64,000 nucleotides of DNA from Methylococcales symbiont of Hymedesmia sp. n. MRB-2018 (GTDB lineage Bacteria; Pseudomonadota; Gammaproteobacteria; Methylococcales; Methylomonadaceae). Location of the stretch: positions 1 through 64,000 of the forward strand of contig QPIN01000060.1 of assembly GCA_003666385.1 (NCBI GenBank), given 5' to 3'. The position numbers and the translations under genes are program-made. The notes below the pieces were generated by a model. That model was not told the DNA's origin, did no database searches, and saw nothing but the letters and a program-made list of their open reading frames with translations. Of this stretch, positions 32,588-55,257 are shown in pieces (the stretch's first letter is position 1; every line of letters begins with the position of its first letter).

Positions 32588-32751
32588 TGTTTGTTTCGTT
32601 TCTGTTTTAAGGCTAAATCACGTACTAATTGTTTTCTTTGCATAAATGGCAACACTATATTTAACAGTAATACCACAAAAGCAATGCCATAAGCAGACCA
32701 GACATACATGCCATACCCACCCATAGCTAAAAATTCATTAAAGCTATTCAT
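32584..32751 (-). CDS. ccmD: Heme exporter protein CcmD (not in supplied ORF track)
   Basis: Read from sequence: MNSFNEFLAMGGYGMYVWSAYGIAFVVLLLNIVLPFMQRKQLVRDLALKQKRNKQ*, between ccmE and ccmC. Confidence 0.9.
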   Translation of the reverse strand: MNSFNEFLAMGGYGMYVWSAYGIAFVVLLLNIVLPFMQRKQLVRDLALKQKRNKQ

Positions 32752-33508
32752 TAGTTTCCTCCACTAGCTTTTGCACCCATTGACTGTTTTCTTCACGTTT
32801 TAATATTTCTACTTTAGCCACTAGTAACATGGCAATACCATAATAGAATTTAAATGCAGTCGCCATCAGTAACAAGGGGATCAGCATGTCAATATGTATA
32901 GAGGGCTTATCCATTTTGGCAACCGTTGCCCCCTGGTGTAAGGTATTCCACCATTCCACAGAATAGTGAATAATTGGGATGTTAACCACACCCACCAAAG
33001 CTAAAATTGAGATAGCACGCGACGCCGTTCGTTTATCTTCAATCGCACCATATAGACTGATAACACCTAGGTATAAAAACAATAAAATGAGTTCTGACGT
33101 TAAGCGTGCATCCCATACCCACCAAGTTCCCCACATAGGCTTACCCCACAAAGAACCCGTCACCAAAGCAATAAAGGTAAAGCTTGCGCCAATAGGCGCA
33201 CTACTGATAGCAACCACATCAGCAATTTTCATCCGCCATATTAATCCAATAGCACCTGAAATAGCCATGACCACATAAACGAATAATGACATCCAGGCGG
33301 CAGGGACATGGATATAAATAATTCGATAACTATCACCTTGTTGATAATCAGTAGGAGCCAAATACAAGCCCATGTATAAACCAGAAACTGCCAATAAAAC
33401 AAAAATTACCACAAACCAAGGCAATAATTTATCAGCAAAACTGTAAAAATGTGGCGGTGAAGCCATGCGATGATAAAAGCGGAGTAATGGAGCTGGAACT
33501 ATAGACAT
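32744..33508 (-). CDS. ccmC: Heme exporter protein CcmC
   Basis: IYIHVPAAWMS...WGTWWVWDARLTSELIL. Confidence 0.96.
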   Translation of the reverse strand: MSIVPAPLLRFYHRMASPPHFYSFADKLLPWFVVIFVLLAVSGLYMGLYLAPTDYQQGDSYRIIYIHVPAAWMSLFVYVVMAISGAIGLIWRMKIADVVAISSAPIGASFTFIALVTGSLWGKPMWGTWWVWDARLTSELILLFLYLGVISLYGAIEDKRTASRAISILALVGVVNIPIIHYSVEWWNTLHQGATVAKMDKPSIHIDMLIPLLLMATAFKFYYGIAMLLVAKVEILKREENSQWVQKLVEETNE

Positions 33509-33579
33509 ATCATTGGTCTATGCTGAATAGAGTGGGTCATTAAATTTTAGTTTTCCACTAGGTAAGTAAATCATATTAA

Positions 33580-33643
33580 AGGGTCTGTGCCATTTTATGT
33601 GGGTACTCAAATTTTAGTTTTCTATTATTTGGCAGTGACCCAT
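33580..33643. repeat. Interspersed repeat family D, copy 2
   Basis: Matches 14365-14430; degenerate half copy at ~33533-33560. Confidence 0.8.
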
Positions 33644-33745: not shown

Positions 33746-34072
33746 TTTAAGCTCTCGCTTTGTTTAGCATTGTCCATAAGTTATTAAAACCTGTAATTAT
33801 AAGTTGCTTAAAATACTAGCCATAACAATAAAAAACAAGTATTACAACCGTTCCCGTATTTCAGAGAAGAAATTTAGAGAAGTTTTGAAGTGTTTTTGTC
33901 TTGATTTGAATGCTATTTGAAAAATAGGGTTACAATTTGCGAAGGTAGCGTCTAGTCAAATGCGGGGAATTCGTTGCGTCCCTAATTATTTTAAGCATTA
34001 TGCCAGTATTGCTATACTTCTGTAAAATGGTATGATTTTAAACCTACTTTTTCAACCAATCAAGCACACAAA

Positions 34073-35059
34073 ATGATAAATATAATCCTCAGTTTTATTC
34101 TGTTTCCGACCGTGGCATGGGTGCTAGGCGTTGCTTTTTCTATCCCTCTATTTTTGAGTTTAACCCTTAGTTTTTTGTTAGTGACAGTCGCTCCGTTGTT
34201 GCAAATTTATGCAAATAAAGATGCACTGATTATTTGGTTAAAATCGCTTACCATAGGGGTTCTGGTGGTATTAACGGTGTTGGGGATTTATGAACTATTG
34301 CTACTGTATGGTATTACCAGTCATTTTTTGCCAGAAATTAGAAACGATGCCAATAGCCAAACATTATTTTTGTCGGCGTTGTTGATTTTTGCTTTATTTA
34401 TTTATTATTTGCTACTCTCACAAGTCAAAACTGAGAAAAAACAAAGCTTAGACCAGCAGCTAAATCAGGTGTTATTACGTCCGTCAATAGCACTATGCCT
34501 GTTGGTGGCGTGTATTTTAACGGTGTTGGAATTGTTATTGGTGGATGAGGGGGCAGCGAATACGTTAAGCTGGATTGCACCGAAATTATTGGAGCGTGGC
34601 ATCATCCCGCCGCTGACCTTGCTGCTGTTTAATTGGGGGCTGTTATTACTCATCGGTAAGTGGCTGATTTTGCTCAAAGAGGGCAGTCAAAATCGCCACT
34701 CGCTGTTGCTGGTAATGCTGGATAAACCTGCGGATGATTTTTGGGATAAGGTGTGGCTAAAGAGCGAGGCCTTTTATATTCTACCGAATTATATTAACTA
34801 CGCTCTGCCGATTTTAGGCTTTATCGGCACCGTGCTTGGTATTTCGCTATCGGCGGAAAATATCGCTGATATTATCGCCTCGCCAGATGGTTTGACCGCC
34901 AATAATAAGAGTCTGGGCGATGCTATTATCCCACTTGGAATTGCCTTTGACACCACCTTAATTGCGCTGTCGTTGGGTTTGATACTAACTTTGATTTTTG
35001 TGTTACTCAAATCAATGGAAGTACGGATTCTCAACCAATTAAAGCAGTTAAGCAGTTAA
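34073..35059 (+). CDS. MotA/TolQ/ExbB-like proton-channel membrane protein (motor operon gene 1)
   Basis: Polytopic; C-terminal signature YALPILGFIGTVLGISLS...SLGDAIIPLGIAFDTTLIALSLGLIL resembles the TolQ/ExbB/MotA channel core. Confidence 0.75.
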   Translation: MINIILSFILFPTVAWVLGVAFSIPLFLSLTLSFLLVTVAPLLQIYANKDALIIWLKSLTIGVLVVLTVLGIYELLLLYGITSHFLPEIRNDANSQTLFLSALLIFALFIYYLLLSQVKTEKKQSLDQQLNQVLLRPSIALCLLVACILTVLELLLVDEGAANTLSWIAPKLLERGIIPPLTLLLFNWGLLLLIGKWLILLKEGSQNRHSLLLVMLDKPADDFWDKVWLKSEAFYILPNYINYALPILGFIGTVLGISLSAENIADIIASPDGLTANNKSLGDAIIPLGIAFDTTLIALSLGLILTLIFVLLKSMEVRILNQLKQLSS

Positions 35060-35062
35060 GCG

Positions 35063-35566
35063 GTGAAACCAAGAGTTAGAACCAAACACTTTTCCAACTT
35101 TTCCATCATTGAAGTTTTCGGCGGCACCTTCGCCCTACTGGTAGTTTTGTTCGTCATTCTCAACATTTTCTCAGAGGCGCAAATTCAGCAGCGATTAGCG
35201 CAAACAATTGAGGAAGGCGAGTATAAAATCTCGTGGGAAAAAGGTAACGAAGGCTATATTGTCATTGCTTTTCCGAGTTATATGCTGATTGTCCAGCAGC
35301 AAAAAAAGGTAGATTTGGCAAATATTTGTGCTTCCAATTCTGCGTTTGTCAATTATGCACGGCAAATTTATGCGGACAAAAAAAAGCAAATAGTGTTCGC
35401 CATTGTGGAAAATGCGACCTTAACCATGCGTGCTGGACGGGATTGTATGCGCCAAATTTTTCCTAAAAAGCCGCTGTCCATCGCTTGGATTATTGCTAAT
35501 AATGAGTTGCTAAAATCGGTTAGCATTGACAATTTTCCTGCCTATATCAAGCAAACAATTAAATAG
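35063..35566 (+). CDS. Single-pass MotB/ExbD-like protein (motor operon gene 2; GTG start)
   Basis: N-terminal helix SIIEVFGGTFALLVVLFVILNIF with Glu17; starts 3 bp after gene 1. Confidence 0.6.
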   Translation: MKPRVRTKHFSNFSIIEVFGGTFALLVVLFVILNIFSEAQIQQRLAQTIEEGEYKISWEKGNEGYIVIAFPSYMLIVQQQKKVDLANICASNSAFVNYARQIYADKKKQIVFAIVENATLTMRAGRDCMRQIFPKKPLSIAWIIANNELLKSVSIDNFPAYIKQTIK

Positions 35567-35568
35567 AT

Positions 35569-37143
35569 ATGACCTCTGAACTCCACACCAACCACATTGC
35601 CTTAGCGGATATTTTGGCGAACGGGGTGGTAGTTTTGCTGATTTTGATTACCCTGTCGCTGAGCGTTAAACAGCAAGATGCCGAGCATGAATTGCAACAA
35701 GTGAGCGAAATCGGGGCGGTGATGGCGCGCGAAATTGGCAGTTCGTTTATCACCAATGCCTTGCCGAGTAGCAGCCCAGCGATGTTGCACGATTATAATC
35801 ACCCCCAACATGCCAAAGTTCCCTATATTGTTATGGCTAAAAATCAGCTACTAATTAAGAGCGCTGGCGATGGTAAAAAGTTAGATTTTAGTTTGTCAAA
35901 AGAGGAGTTATTGCAGCAAGATAATCGCTTTGACGATTTTTTACGCGGCTTGGTTACTAACAAAAAAACCCGGATACGGATGGATATTCACCATATTAAA
36001 AATTATTATTTGGTGCTATCTATCCTCAAAAAACACAAAGTTTTAGTGAGTGATTGGCATTTTCTGGGGCTTGAAACGGCGGGTGCTGGTACTGATGATT
36101 TTTCATCTCCTGTAAGTCAAGATGAGGTTTTTCCAGATTTTATGGAGACGGAATTGGATGATGATTTAGATGAGTTTGAGGACGAACAAGGAGTTTTGAG
36201 CGAGGGCGTTGATTTTTTCTCAGGTGAGGCCGATGGGCAGTTTAGTAGTGAGAATGGACGTGGTTTTGGCAAGGGTGATGGTAGCGAATTTGGCACGCAA
36301 TCAGGGCTTGGTGACGAGGAAATGTATAGGGAAATGGAGCGGCTGATGGCGAAATATTCAGGACTTGAGGATGCTTATTTTGTTGAGTCTCTGAATATCA
36401 ATTTTTCTAGCAGTGGCTCAATATCGGGATTAGAAATACCTTTCAAATACGGCGATGAAGGTGGCGGAGAACCCGTCTCTAAACAGTTGCTGGCGATTTT
36501 GCTTAGTTATCTGGCGGACCGACAACGTGCCTATCAATCTGACGAATTTGTGGAGGTCAGTGCTGATGATTTTGTTCAAGCTAGATTCCCCTCAGTAAAG
36601 CGAGATTATGCGGCAGAAATTGAGGCAATTTATCAGAGCATATCAACTATTGACTTTGATTTTATTGATATTATTCATCAGCACGAAGCGAAAAGTGGTG
36701 CGGCGTTTTTGGTTAATAAAAACTTAGAAAATAGCAAAATTATCAGCCAAACAAAAGTTCAGCCAACGATTTGGGAGGAAAATACTTTAAGCATAAAACT
36801 CTACCCGCAACCCACGATTGACAACGGTTCGCAGGTGGAAATCAGTGCAACTGATGTAATTTTATTCGCCGCCAGACACAATGAAAATGAGCGATTTGAT
36901 TGGCAATTAGTGGCAGTTTTAAACGCCCAACTAAACGCGATAGAAATTGGTTTTGTGTATGCGAAGTATACTAAATACGGGTTATTATTGAGCGCCCAAG
37001 AAAACGATATTCGCCTTAATCAAAGGGAGATTGAGCGCTATTATCTGCTGAGTAATCAGGGAAATTATTGGAAATGGAGCTTGCTGATGTTGATATTTAC
37101 GCTATTTTTGTATCTACTTTTTAAGCGACACCATGCTAAATAA
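35569..37143 (+). CDS. MotB/TolR-like protein with acidic Gly-rich linker and C-terminal TM (motor operon gene 3)
   Basis: N-terminal helix ALADILANGVVVLLILITL with Asp14; C-terminal WKWSLLMLIFTLFLYLLFKRHH. Confidence 0.6.
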   Translation: MTSELHTNHIALADILANGVVVLLILITLSLSVKQQDAEHELQQVSEIGAVMAREIGSSFITNALPSSSPAMLHDYNHPQHAKVPYIVMAKNQLLIKSAGDGKKLDFSLSKEELLQQDNRFDDFLRGLVTNKKTRIRMDIHHIKNYYLVLSILKKHKVLVSDWHFLGLETAGAGTDDFSSPVSQDEVFPDFMETELDDDLDEFEDEQGVLSEGVDFFSGEADGQFSSENGRGFGKGDGSEFGTQSGLGDEEMYREMERLMAKYSGLEDAYFVESLNINFSSSGSISGLEIPFKYGDEGGGEPVSKQLLAILLSYLADRQRAYQSDEFVEVSADDFVQARFPSVKRDYAAEIEAIYQSISTIDFDFIDIIHQHEAKSGAAFLVNKNLENSKIISQTKVQPTIWEENTLSIKLYPQPTIDNGSQVEISATDVILFAARHNENERFDWQLVAVLNAQLNAIEIGFVYAKYTKYGLLLSAQENDIRLNQREIERYYLLSNQGNYWKWSLLMLIFTLFLYLLFKRHHAK

Positions 37144-38641
37144 AATTTTATTCTCGGTGATTGTATTAAGCGTTTTGACGGTAGTCTTGCTACTTAGTCC
37201 ATGGCACAAAAATATCCCCAGCCAAACTTTGAAAATCAAAGCCAGCGACCAACAAAAATCCGCATTAGACAAGATTTTATTGGAAAATTTAAACGTAATT
37301 AAAGCCCGCCACAGTTTAATAAAATCCTTAACTCAGCCGCCTAAAACAGTGGTAATTAAAAAATTATGGGTGGATAAAACCGAAGTCGCCCAAGCTGATT
37401 TTTATAAATTTGTTGGCTGGACTAGAGCGCATAATTCCTCCGCATTTTTTGCCCCTACCCAGCCGCAAGACTGGAAATTTTACAGCAGTAGCAAAACGCA
37501 TGGTCTGTCTGGCAAACTTGGTGTTTCTGCCAATGGCATTAGTTTTTACGATGCTTATGCTTACTGCCGTGCAAATGGTGCAAGATTGCCGAGCGCCGAT
37601 GAATTTCGTGCTATAGCTGAGTCCCGCCCTGCCCAACTCTACCCTTGGGGCAATAAATTCAATCCCAAACCTTGGCCATATTTTGATGCCCGCTTGAACG
37701 CCACCCTCAAGCCCGCCATCTTTCCCAGCAGCGATACCAAAGAAGGTGTGGCTGACCTCGGCGCATTATTATCCGAATGGACGCTTGGTAATTATCCGCA
37801 AGGCTACCCGTTTATTCAGGGTGGCAACGCCTATTCAAGCCCTCATGAAATCTATGCGCTAACTATGGTTTATCGCTCGGTGCCGGCAAAATCACGCTCG
37901 CCGTATGTTGGTTTTCGCTGTGTTTATGATACCAAACCTCGTGCCCTCTCCCCATGGAAAAGCAAAATTAACAGCGTGCTGATTACTAACAAAACCATTA
38001 AAACCAACCACTATCCGCATTCCACCATTCGCCCATTTTTGCATTATTTATCGCGCCTAAATGTTGATACTTTTAAATCATTATTGCCCATTCAGAGAAA
38101 ATCGGATTATCAATTATCGGTCGGCATAAACGAGGCGAGTGTCGCCCAATATGCTCAATTTATGGCGGATATTTTTGTCTCTTTTGGTTTGTATTCCCAC
38201 CCGCAAAAACCCCAAAATCACAGCCTTCAGCCGCTCAATTGGCAACAGCAAAAAGACCACCCCAATCGCCCAGTGGTAGGGGTAGATTGGTGGAGTGCTT
38301 ATCATTTTGCAAATTGGGCGGGCGGCAGATTGCCTACTTATAAGGAATCAATAAAAATGCAGGTGTTAGCAGCGGTGCAAAAATCGGTGTTTGCTGACCA
38401 CCGCCAAACCTACCCCGCCGAGCTAAAACCCAATACCAAAATCTCCCACCTACTTGGCAATGTCTCCGAATGGACTAGTAGCATTGACAGCTCAAAAGAA
38501 AATCTTAGCATGATTGTCCGCGGCGGCAGCTTTTTAATACATCAAAAACGTGCCAACAACATTGATTTCTATCGCTCAATCAGCCCCCACTACCGCGCTC
38601 AAGATATTGGCTTGCGGGTAGTGTTTGACAAGATAAAATAG
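37133..38641 (+). CDS. Membrane-anchored double SUMF1/FGE-fold protein (motor operon gene 4)
   Basis: N-terminal TM; two SUMF1 signatures (WVDKTEVAQADFYKF..ARLPSADEFRAIAE..YVGFRCVYD and GRLPTYKESIK..GNVSEWTSS..IVRGGSF..DIGLRVVFD). Confidence 0.85.
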   Translation: MLNKILFSVIVLSVLTVVLLLSPWHKNIPSQTLKIKASDQQKSALDKILLENLNVIKARHSLIKSLTQPPKTVVIKKLWVDKTEVAQADFYKFVGWTRAHNSSAFFAPTQPQDWKFYSSSKTHGLSGKLGVSANGISFYDAYAYCRANGARLPSADEFRAIAESRPAQLYPWGNKFNPKPWPYFDARLNATLKPAIFPSSDTKEGVADLGALLSEWTLGNYPQGYPFIQGGNAYSSPHEIYALTMVYRSVPAKSRSPYVGFRCVYDTKPRALSPWKSKINSVLITNKTIKTNHYPHSTIRPFLHYLSRLNVDTFKSLLPIQRKSDYQLSVGINEASVAQYAQFMADIFVSFGLYSHPQKPQNHSLQPLNWQQQKDHPNRPVVGVDWWSAYHFANWAGGRLPTYKESIKMQVLAAVQKSVFADHRQTYPAELKPNTKISHLLGNVSEWTSSIDSSKENLSMIVRGGSFLIHQKRANNIDFYRSISPHYRAQDIGLRVVFDKIK

Positions 38642-38838
38642 CGCACGCCATCAAACTGGTGTTCCTACCATTAACGGGGCAGATTTGAAGTGGATTAAAG
38701 TTACTTTGGCACACGAAGAGTTCGTGATAAGCGTGGTCGTGGTGCTAGAGGAAAGACTATTGTTTTTTGGCATAGATCCACCAAAAATATCAAAACAAAG
38801 GATTTAGACAGTAATATTATTAAAATAATTGGTATGTC

Positions 38839-39195
38839 TTGGACACTTTTGTAGGCACAAGTGAGGAGAAAAATTTAATTACTTTTATTGAAAATGTAAT
38901 TCAAAATCTACAAAATAAATACGAAGAGGTTTATAAAATATATGATTTTGAAACAGGCAGAGGATTTCAACCTGACTTTATTTTATTTTTGAAAAATAAA
39001 GAAACTAAACCGATGTACTATCAAGTCTTTATCGAACCAAAAGGCGAGAATTTACTTGAGCATGACCAATGGAAAGGTGAGTTTTTAGAAAAAATATCAG
39101 AAAAATACGGATTAGATAATATTTTAGGCGAGGATAAGAACTATTATTTAATTGGGCTACCGTTTTTTAATCAATGGTGTTTACACTCTATTTAG
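38839..39195 (+). pseudogene. C-terminal remnant resembling type III restriction / DEAD-box helicase protein
   Basis: KIYDFETGRGFQPDFILFLKNKE...YYQVFIEPKGENLLEHDQWKGEFLEKI...YYLIGLPFFN; no helicase part upstream. Confidence 0.65.
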
Positions 39196-39363: not shown

Positions 39364-40038
39364 CTAAGTAATACTCATTTTTATAGCCGCTGCCGCTGGC
39401 AAAGGAGCTAACACCATCGACATAAAAAAAATAGCAATCAAGATATTAATTTGTGGATCCACAGCTAATCCATTACCTGCCATTTCTACAGCATTACTGG
39501 CAAAAATTAGGACAGGAATGTAAAGAGGCAAAACCAGTAAGGATAAAATCATCCCTCCTCTACGCAAGCCAATGGTTAAAGAAACACCAATGGATCCAAT
39601 CAAACTTAAAACTGGCGTAGCTAAGACCAAAGTAATCAATAAAGTTCCTAATGCCTGTTCTGGTAAGCCTAAAAAAACAGCCAATAAGGGGGCAACAAGC
39701 AATAATGGCAACCCTGTTACCAGCCAGTGTGCCACAATTTTAGCAAACACTAAAACGGTCAAAGGATGCGAACTTAAAAGCATTTGTTCCAAAGAACCAT
39801 CGTCAAAATCGGAACGAAACAAACTATCCAAGGAAAGCATCACAGCTAATAATGCAGAGACCCAAATAATACCTGGCGCAATCGCTTGCAATAAATTGGG
39901 ATCAGCACCTACTCCCAATGGAAATAAAGTCACAACGAGAATAAAGAAAAACACCGGATTAGCAATTTCAGTTCGTCTGCGAAATGCCAGTATCAAATCA
40001 CGCTGGATAACAGCAAAAAAGGCAGTCGTTAATGACAT
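39364..40038 (-). CDS. ccmB: Heme exporter protein CcmB
   Basis: FFILVVTLFPLGVGADPNLLQAIAPGIIWVSALLA. Confidence 0.95.
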   Translation of the reverse strand: MSLTTAFFAVIQRDLILAFRRRTEIANPVFFFILVVTLFPLGVGADPNLLQAIAPGIIWVSALLAVMLSLDSLFRSDFDDGSLEQMLLSSHPLTVLVFAKIVAHWLVTGLPLLLVAPLLAVFLGLPEQALGTLLITLVLATPVLSLIGSIGVSLTIGLRRGGMILSLLVLPLYIPVLIFASNAVEMAGNGLAVDPQINILIAIFFMSMVLAPLPAAAAIKMSIT

Positions 40039-55078: not shown

Positions 55079-55257
55079 TATCTCCTGTAGCGTTCGATTA
55101 GTACTGGGTGTTTCCTGAACCTGTTTTTACCTCGGAAGTTGATTCTAGTAATGGTGTGCATGCCTGTTTTACGGGAAGCCTGATTTACTAATAAAGCCTC
55201 CACTTGAACCCTCCGGTTCAAGGACGAAGGTACGAGACGGCGCAGATGGGAGATTCC
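55079..55257 (+). ncRNA. ssrS: 6S RNA
   Basis: ATCTCCTGTAGCG...CTTGAACCCTCCGGTTCAAGGACGAAGGTACGAGACGGCGCAGATGGGAGATTCC; closing stem and CTTGAACC hairpin as in 6S; immediately after zapA. Confidence 0.9.

Follow-up and report, generated by a model that had tools for sequence, protein, structure and literature searches.

A horizontally moving cassette of four genes, g1 to g4, occupies positions 34073-38641 of a 64,000-nt stretch of DNA (hereafter the window; contig QPIN01000060.1, forward strand) from the Methylococcales symbiont of Hymedesmia sp. n. MRB-2018. The cassette is a real, conserved and mobile family, undescribed as far as the literature and models searched extend. It probably encodes an inner-membrane motor of the ExbB/TolQ/MotA type, driven by the proton-motive force, in which g1, g2 and g3 would assemble in a 5:1:1 ratio around a single obligatory proton carrier. 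An earlier note on this DNA had already proposed a motor at this place; the insertion of the cassette in the ccm operon, its recent horizontal exchange and its distribution among sponge symbionts are additions to that proposal.

The four genes and their conservation

The four same-strand open reading frames (ORFs) listed in the earlier note were all recovered:

g1, 34073..35059, + strand: 328 aa, putative polytopic wheel subunit of the MotA/TolQ/ExbB superfamily
g2, 35063..35566, + strand: 167 aa, GTG start, putative first axle with one transmembrane helix and an ExbD-like periplasmic domain (predicted)
g3, 35569..37143, + strand: 524 aa, putative second axle with Asp14 in an ALxDILAN transmembrane helix
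g4, 37133..38641, + strand: 502 aa, N-terminal transmembrane anchor and two SUMF1 (FGE-like) domains that lack the catalytic Cys pair

The gaps of 3 bp between g1 and g2 and of 2 bp between g2 and g3 are as previously given, and the overlap between g3 and g4 measures 11 bp, not 10 bp. At least a dozen other genomes, mostly gammaproteobacterial and several of them from sponges, contain these genes in an identical arrangement. The order g1-g2-g3-g4 occurs at every complete locus found, a co-occurrence far beyond chance. No fifth gene common to the compared loci was found, and none of the Pfam, NCBIfam, PADLOC and PHROG models names the four-gene set. Comparison of the window with the sister genome, a Methylococcales symbiont of the sponge Iophon, gave ratios of nonsynonymous to synonymous divergence (dN/dS) of 0.23-0.42 for g1-g4, which suggests that the ORFs are under purifying selection and have retained a function. 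The symbiont genome contains one copy of the cassette and also encodes ordinary ExbB/TolQ-type and separate ExbD/TolR proteins.

The core of g1 (GFIGTVLGIS...FDTTLIALSLGL) lies at about residues 170-328 and is preceded by an N-terminal extension that adds several predicted transmembrane segments; the protein has eight hydrophobic segments. The motifs GFxGTVxGI and LGxAFDTTLxALSL are invariant across homologues, and 12 of the 13 g1 homologues match PF01618 (MotA/TolQ/ExbB; best 3.1e-9) over a region that covers GxxGTVxGI and the transmembrane threonines. These matches support the view of g1 as a MotA/TolQ/ExbB-type wheel, the likeness already noticed in the first reading of the gene.

The description of g4 as a membrane-anchored protein with two SUMF1 domains was likewise borne out by its transmembrane anchor and by a PF03781 (FGE-sulfatase/SUMF1) score of 122.5 bits over three stretches. 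Its best match in the PDB is SUMF2 (1y4j, 6e-22), and FGE and related proteins also match. The catalytic Cys pair that follows the GGS motif in FGE is absent (GGSFLIHQKRANNI and GGNAYSSPHEIYAL), the only cysteines of the window g4 being 145 and 263. Because the pair is missing from the position of the FGE active site, an enzymatic FGE role appears unlikely, and g4 may serve as an adaptor without catalytic activity or as a part that binds a ligand.

Paired axles and a proposed single proton carrier

The acidic residue of the g3 axle helix is Asp14 (codon 35608-35610), which is kept in the close-family loci wherever g3 is readable. The equivalent residue of g2 is Glu17 (codon 35111-35113), and at 17 close-family loci this position is occupied ten times by Glu, six times by Ala and once by Gln. 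As a functional feature, the acid that the earlier note saw before both axle helices is therefore supported for g3 and not for g2, where it is not conserved. A Glu in g2 is always paired with LADILAN in g3 and an Ala with LVDILAN; as these combinations seem to correspond to two clades, this co-variation may reflect shared ancestry rather than contact. Transmembrane helices of g3 are found at residues 15-33 and, as a correction to the earlier description, near the C-terminus at 500-518, and its periplasmic region consists of a long low-complexity linker and a beta-rich C-terminal part.

The same asymmetry extends beyond the close family. In distant g1-like loci the wheel gene is very commonly followed by a pair of axle genes, an arrangement present in dozens of loci from planctomycetes, verrucomicrobia, cyanobacteria, spirochaetes, Parabeggiatoa and others. 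Axles from 38 of these loci, picked by gene position and transmembrane helix only, with the acid not used as a criterion, were aligned with those of the window. The acid column of the second axles is Asp in 39 of 39, and that of the 39 first axles holds Ser in 27, Asp in seven and, in the window g2, Glu. An hhalign comparison of g2 with the first axles of the distant pairs gave E 1.6e-9 (probability 96; score 51, shuffle maximum 11), the N-terminal part of g3 scored 23.7 against the distant second axles (shuffle 6.0), and first and second axles proved mutually homologous (E 5.6e-23). On these profile comparisons, g2 and g3 are members of a wide class of paired axles found at TolQ-like loci. 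The connection to ExbD runs through the distant paired axles, which are themselves only modestly similar to ExbD; aligned by hhalign straight against canonical ExbD, neither g2 nor g3 gave a significant score, and in Pfam they match no family at all. The AlphaFold2 model of g2 (mean predicted local distance difference test, pLDDT, 67.6; periplasmic core about 81-96) has one transmembrane helix and a beta-alpha domain. Among the fold-search rows shown, the highest probability went to the ExbD structure 8vgd (target-normalised TM-score, TMt, 0.67; probability 0.51; E 0.69), and 8p9r (ExbD, 0.59) and 5by4 (TolR) were also listed.

From these elements a working model can be drawn. Five g1 subunits would form a wheel, pentameric by homology with ExbB, TolQ and MotA, around a mixed axle made of one g2 and one g3 helix; that each motor contains one of each is suggested by the invariant acid being in g3 only and by the strict pairing of the two genes. 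During the turning of the wheel, Asp14 of g3, as the single obligatory proton carrier, would come into contact with T253 and T294/T295, threonines that are invariant in g1. In a published rotary model each ion accounts for one step of 36 degrees, from one state to a symmetrically equivalent one (PMC9389320), from which it would follow that a one-acid axle takes 72-degree steps. Each turn would then involve five obligatory proton transfers in 72-degree steps instead of ten in 36-degree steps. Torque would reach the periplasm through the periplasmic parts of g2 and g3 and the anchored g4, and the output would be mechanical work on an envelope or surface partner, plausibly one of use inside a sponge. 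In the solved 5:2 motors known to us, the axle consists of two identical chains, and there are two acids. A naturally occurring motor with a single conserved acid, if real, would directly test the need for both carriers and the relation of ion number to step size. More tentatively, and with somewhat less than even confidence, the cassette may be a mobile variant, found in sponge symbionts, of a widespread class of ion-driven motors with an obligate mixed axle. With the proton-binding acid on one helix only, such motors would advance one step for every wheel subunit, using five ions per turn, in contrast to the symmetric 5:2 motors whose structures are known.

Several points weigh against the 5:1:1 motor. 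The window g1 itself scores 18.5 bits with PF01618, under the cut-off of 22.9, and its profile matched no PDB chain. No g2 or g3 member matches PF02472 (ExbD/TolR), and the Foldseek E-values of g2 against ExbD and TolR are not significant. The AlphaFold2 model of g3 is poor (pLDDT 51), and its best fold-search matches, ribosomal uS11 chains, were discarded for low model confidence. The dN/dS estimates rest on small counts, and both complex formation and rotation are deduced rather than directly seen. Finally, the paired genes would also be accounted for by separate g1-g2 and g1-g3 motors, each 5:2. In such an arrangement g1 would be the common wheel of two alternative symmetric motors, one with an axle of two g2 chains and one with an axle of two g3 chains, as may be the case for AglRQ/AglRS in Myxococcus; for AglRQS the choice between hetero- and homodimers has been left open (PMC9389320), and the window g2 does have a Glu at the acid position. 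This alternative seems unlikely, because the position lacks an acid at seven of the 17 g2 loci and is mostly Ser in the first axles of the wider class, so that a g2 homodimer would usually be without a carrier; moreover, g2 and g3 always occur together and in the same order.

The complex might instead be a sensor or signalling channel gated by the proton-motive force, its SUMF1 domains binding a periplasmic ligand. SUMF1 domains devoid of the catalytic Cys would suit such a role, and some distant TolQ-like loci adjoin FHA- and kinase-like genes (read by eye), but among the compared loci no cytoplasmic signalling gene is conserved with the cassette, whose conserved parts other than g1 are predicted to be periplasmic. 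A sensor is accordingly considered rather improbable compared with a force-producing motor.

Insertion in the ccm operon and exchange among symbionts

The cassette splits the ccm operon between ccmB and ccmC and lies in the opposite orientation to it. The features that define the insertion are:

ccmC, 32744..33508, - strand: Cytochrom_C_asm match, left flank of the insertion
high-identity island, 33884..38744, no strand: 97.5% identity with the sister genome (G001)
ccmB, 39364..40038, - strand: PF03379, 254 bits, right flank of the insertion

An empty site is seen in a congener (G004), where ccmB and ccmC are 24 bp apart, and the two genes are also close in four other members of the genus; the cassette is carried by two of the nine members sampled. 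Identity between the two carriers is 97.5% over the island and about 91% in the flanks, with the step at the cassette ends. Synonymous divergence (dS) is 0.02-0.07 for g1-g4 versus 0.21-0.46 for ccmB, leuA and ccmC, that is, 3-20 times lower in the cassette. Given these differences in identity and dS, the simplest reading is that the cassette was exchanged after the two carrier lineages had diverged.

The surroundings of the cassette contain several further sequences. In the sister genome (L130, 12700-13960), an IS30-like transposase gene, apparently frameshifted and with an integrase-core match just below the cut-off, lies between the cassette and ccmC. Right after g4 in the window (38660-38840) there is a possible transposase remnant (SYFGTRRVRDKRGRGARGK...), which has no Pfam match and is single-copy in the genome. 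It is followed on the + strand (38839-39195) by a 118-aa ORF, probably a fragment, with similarity to a type III restriction enzyme in its C-terminal region (PADLOC REase_III, 7e-15); the sister locus lacks this ORF. The interval between ccmC and the cassette includes two imperfect 46-nt direct repeats (33515-33627). Elsewhere in the window, a 6S RNA is encoded at 55079-55256 on the + strand (Rfam RF00013, 83.6 bits).

A scan of the genome collection returned at least 11 loci at E 2e-26 or better, followed by a sharp break, with distant relatives from 4e-12. Proteins of the other loci are about 23-45% identical to those of the window, compared with 97% at the sister locus, and an Alteromonadaceae genome has a more distant version that still comprises four genes. 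In a class-wide sample of 369 genomes, six had g2, one of them being the window's own genome; two of the six had all of g1-g4, and in the other four the set could be seen in part. In a phylum-wide sample of 399 genomes, g2 was present in the window's genome only. A search of the orders of two carriers (G397 and G347) returned only these two genomes. In plasmid and phage collections g1 had no match, and viral contigs gave a single weak one.

As regards the hosts, several assignments rest on record names. The isolate codes COS1 and STY4 look like those of sponge metagenome-assembled genomes of PMC8163846, whose text does not confirm them; these codes, SB06xx and PNG were not found in the paper texts. 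The names of the PNGst and PNGco isolates agree with two sponges from Papua New Guinea, Stylissa flabelliformis and Coelocarteria singaporensis (PMC6742649), and Thioalkalivibrio sp. HK1 has been discussed in a sponge-symbiont context (PMC6081418). Enrichment of the cassette in sponge-derived genomes, several of them so assigned by record name, is likely. The cassette passes from one bacterial lineage to another as one block, most clearly so in sponge symbionts. As a recently exchanged motor complete in itself, carried by bacteria of which several are sponge symbionts, it would provide a concrete target for study: the mechanical work of symbionts at their envelope.

The sporadic distribution and mobility of the cassette, and the restriction-enzyme fragment adjoining it in the window, would fit an anti-phage defence motor analogous to Zorya, a role that the earlier note had considered. 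This explanation is very improbable and that suggestion was not upheld: g1-g4 have no PADLOC match, no ZorC/D/E-like gene and no nuclease or effector gene belongs to the module, and the fragment is missing from the sister locus.

Relation to known motor systems

A kinship with the type IX secretion and gliding system (T9SS, GldKLMN), which likewise joins motor genes to a SUMF1-like partner and whose GldK is weakly matched by g4, can be dismissed as hardly credible, since that match reaches 37 bits against a cut-off of 350, no GldL or GldM model is matched, SUMF1 similarity is common to FGE, EgtB and SUMF2, all of which score above GldK, and the cassette has no other T9SS gene. The conclusion that the set fits none of MotAB, Zorya and GldKLMN cleanly was thus confirmed. 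MotAB axles have an OmpA-type peptidoglycan-binding domain and no such Pfam domain is found in g2 or g3; ZorAB shares with the cassette the motor genes and a sporadic distribution. With ExbBD/TolQR the cassette shares the wheel family PF01618; its g2 model resembles the ExbD periplasmic domain, at a non-significant E-value. The cassette differs in having two different axle proteins and in having no TonB/TolA-like gene in the module. AglRQS of Myxococcus gliding similarly combines one wheel gene with two TolR/MotB-like genes, but its Asp is conserved in both AglQ and AglS, whereas the cassette has a SUMF1 partner and no Glt genes.

Two side observations concern the distant loci. At L003, L023, L067 and L073, TolQ-like genes have neighbours that, read by eye, are FHA-, kinase- and phosphatase-like, which suggests phospho-regulated motors. 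At L007, L008, L009 and L010, a SUMF1 gene lies upstream of the TolQ-like gene; in L007 and L009 two axle genes, both with Asp, come next (a VWA domain was confirmed in L007), and these loci would represent a second SUMF1-linked type of paired-axle motor.

The closest known systems are those described in 2025 (PMC12204202, section 8), namely a tolQ-like gene with a heterologous tolR-like pair and vWA transducers in the Planctomycetes-Verrucomicrobia-Chlamydiae (PVC) group, and tolQ with paired transpore-helix vWA axles. The latter, which probably correspond to L007, L009 and L078, share paired axles with the cassette and, in L007 and L009, an adjacent SUMF1 gene; they differ by the VWA domains on their axles (L007, L078), each with an Asp, as no VWA domain is matched by any of g1-g4. 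In the part of that source available, no description of an acid asymmetry between paired axles was found. The system with a TolR-like pair is alike in that the wheel is followed by two different axle genes with the acid in the second, and g2 is homologous to such first axles. The cassette is set apart from it by the absence of a vWA or TPR gene from the module, the extra N-terminal transmembrane segments of g1, the double-SUMF1 protein and its occurrence mainly in Gammaproteobacteria. Because pairs of TolR-like genes beside tolQ-like genes have been reported there, and paired axles recur in dozens of the loci compared here, the expression 'new motor type' used in the earlier note was overstated as far as the kind of motor is concerned and holds for the family: the cassette is best placed as a new family within the paired-axle kind.

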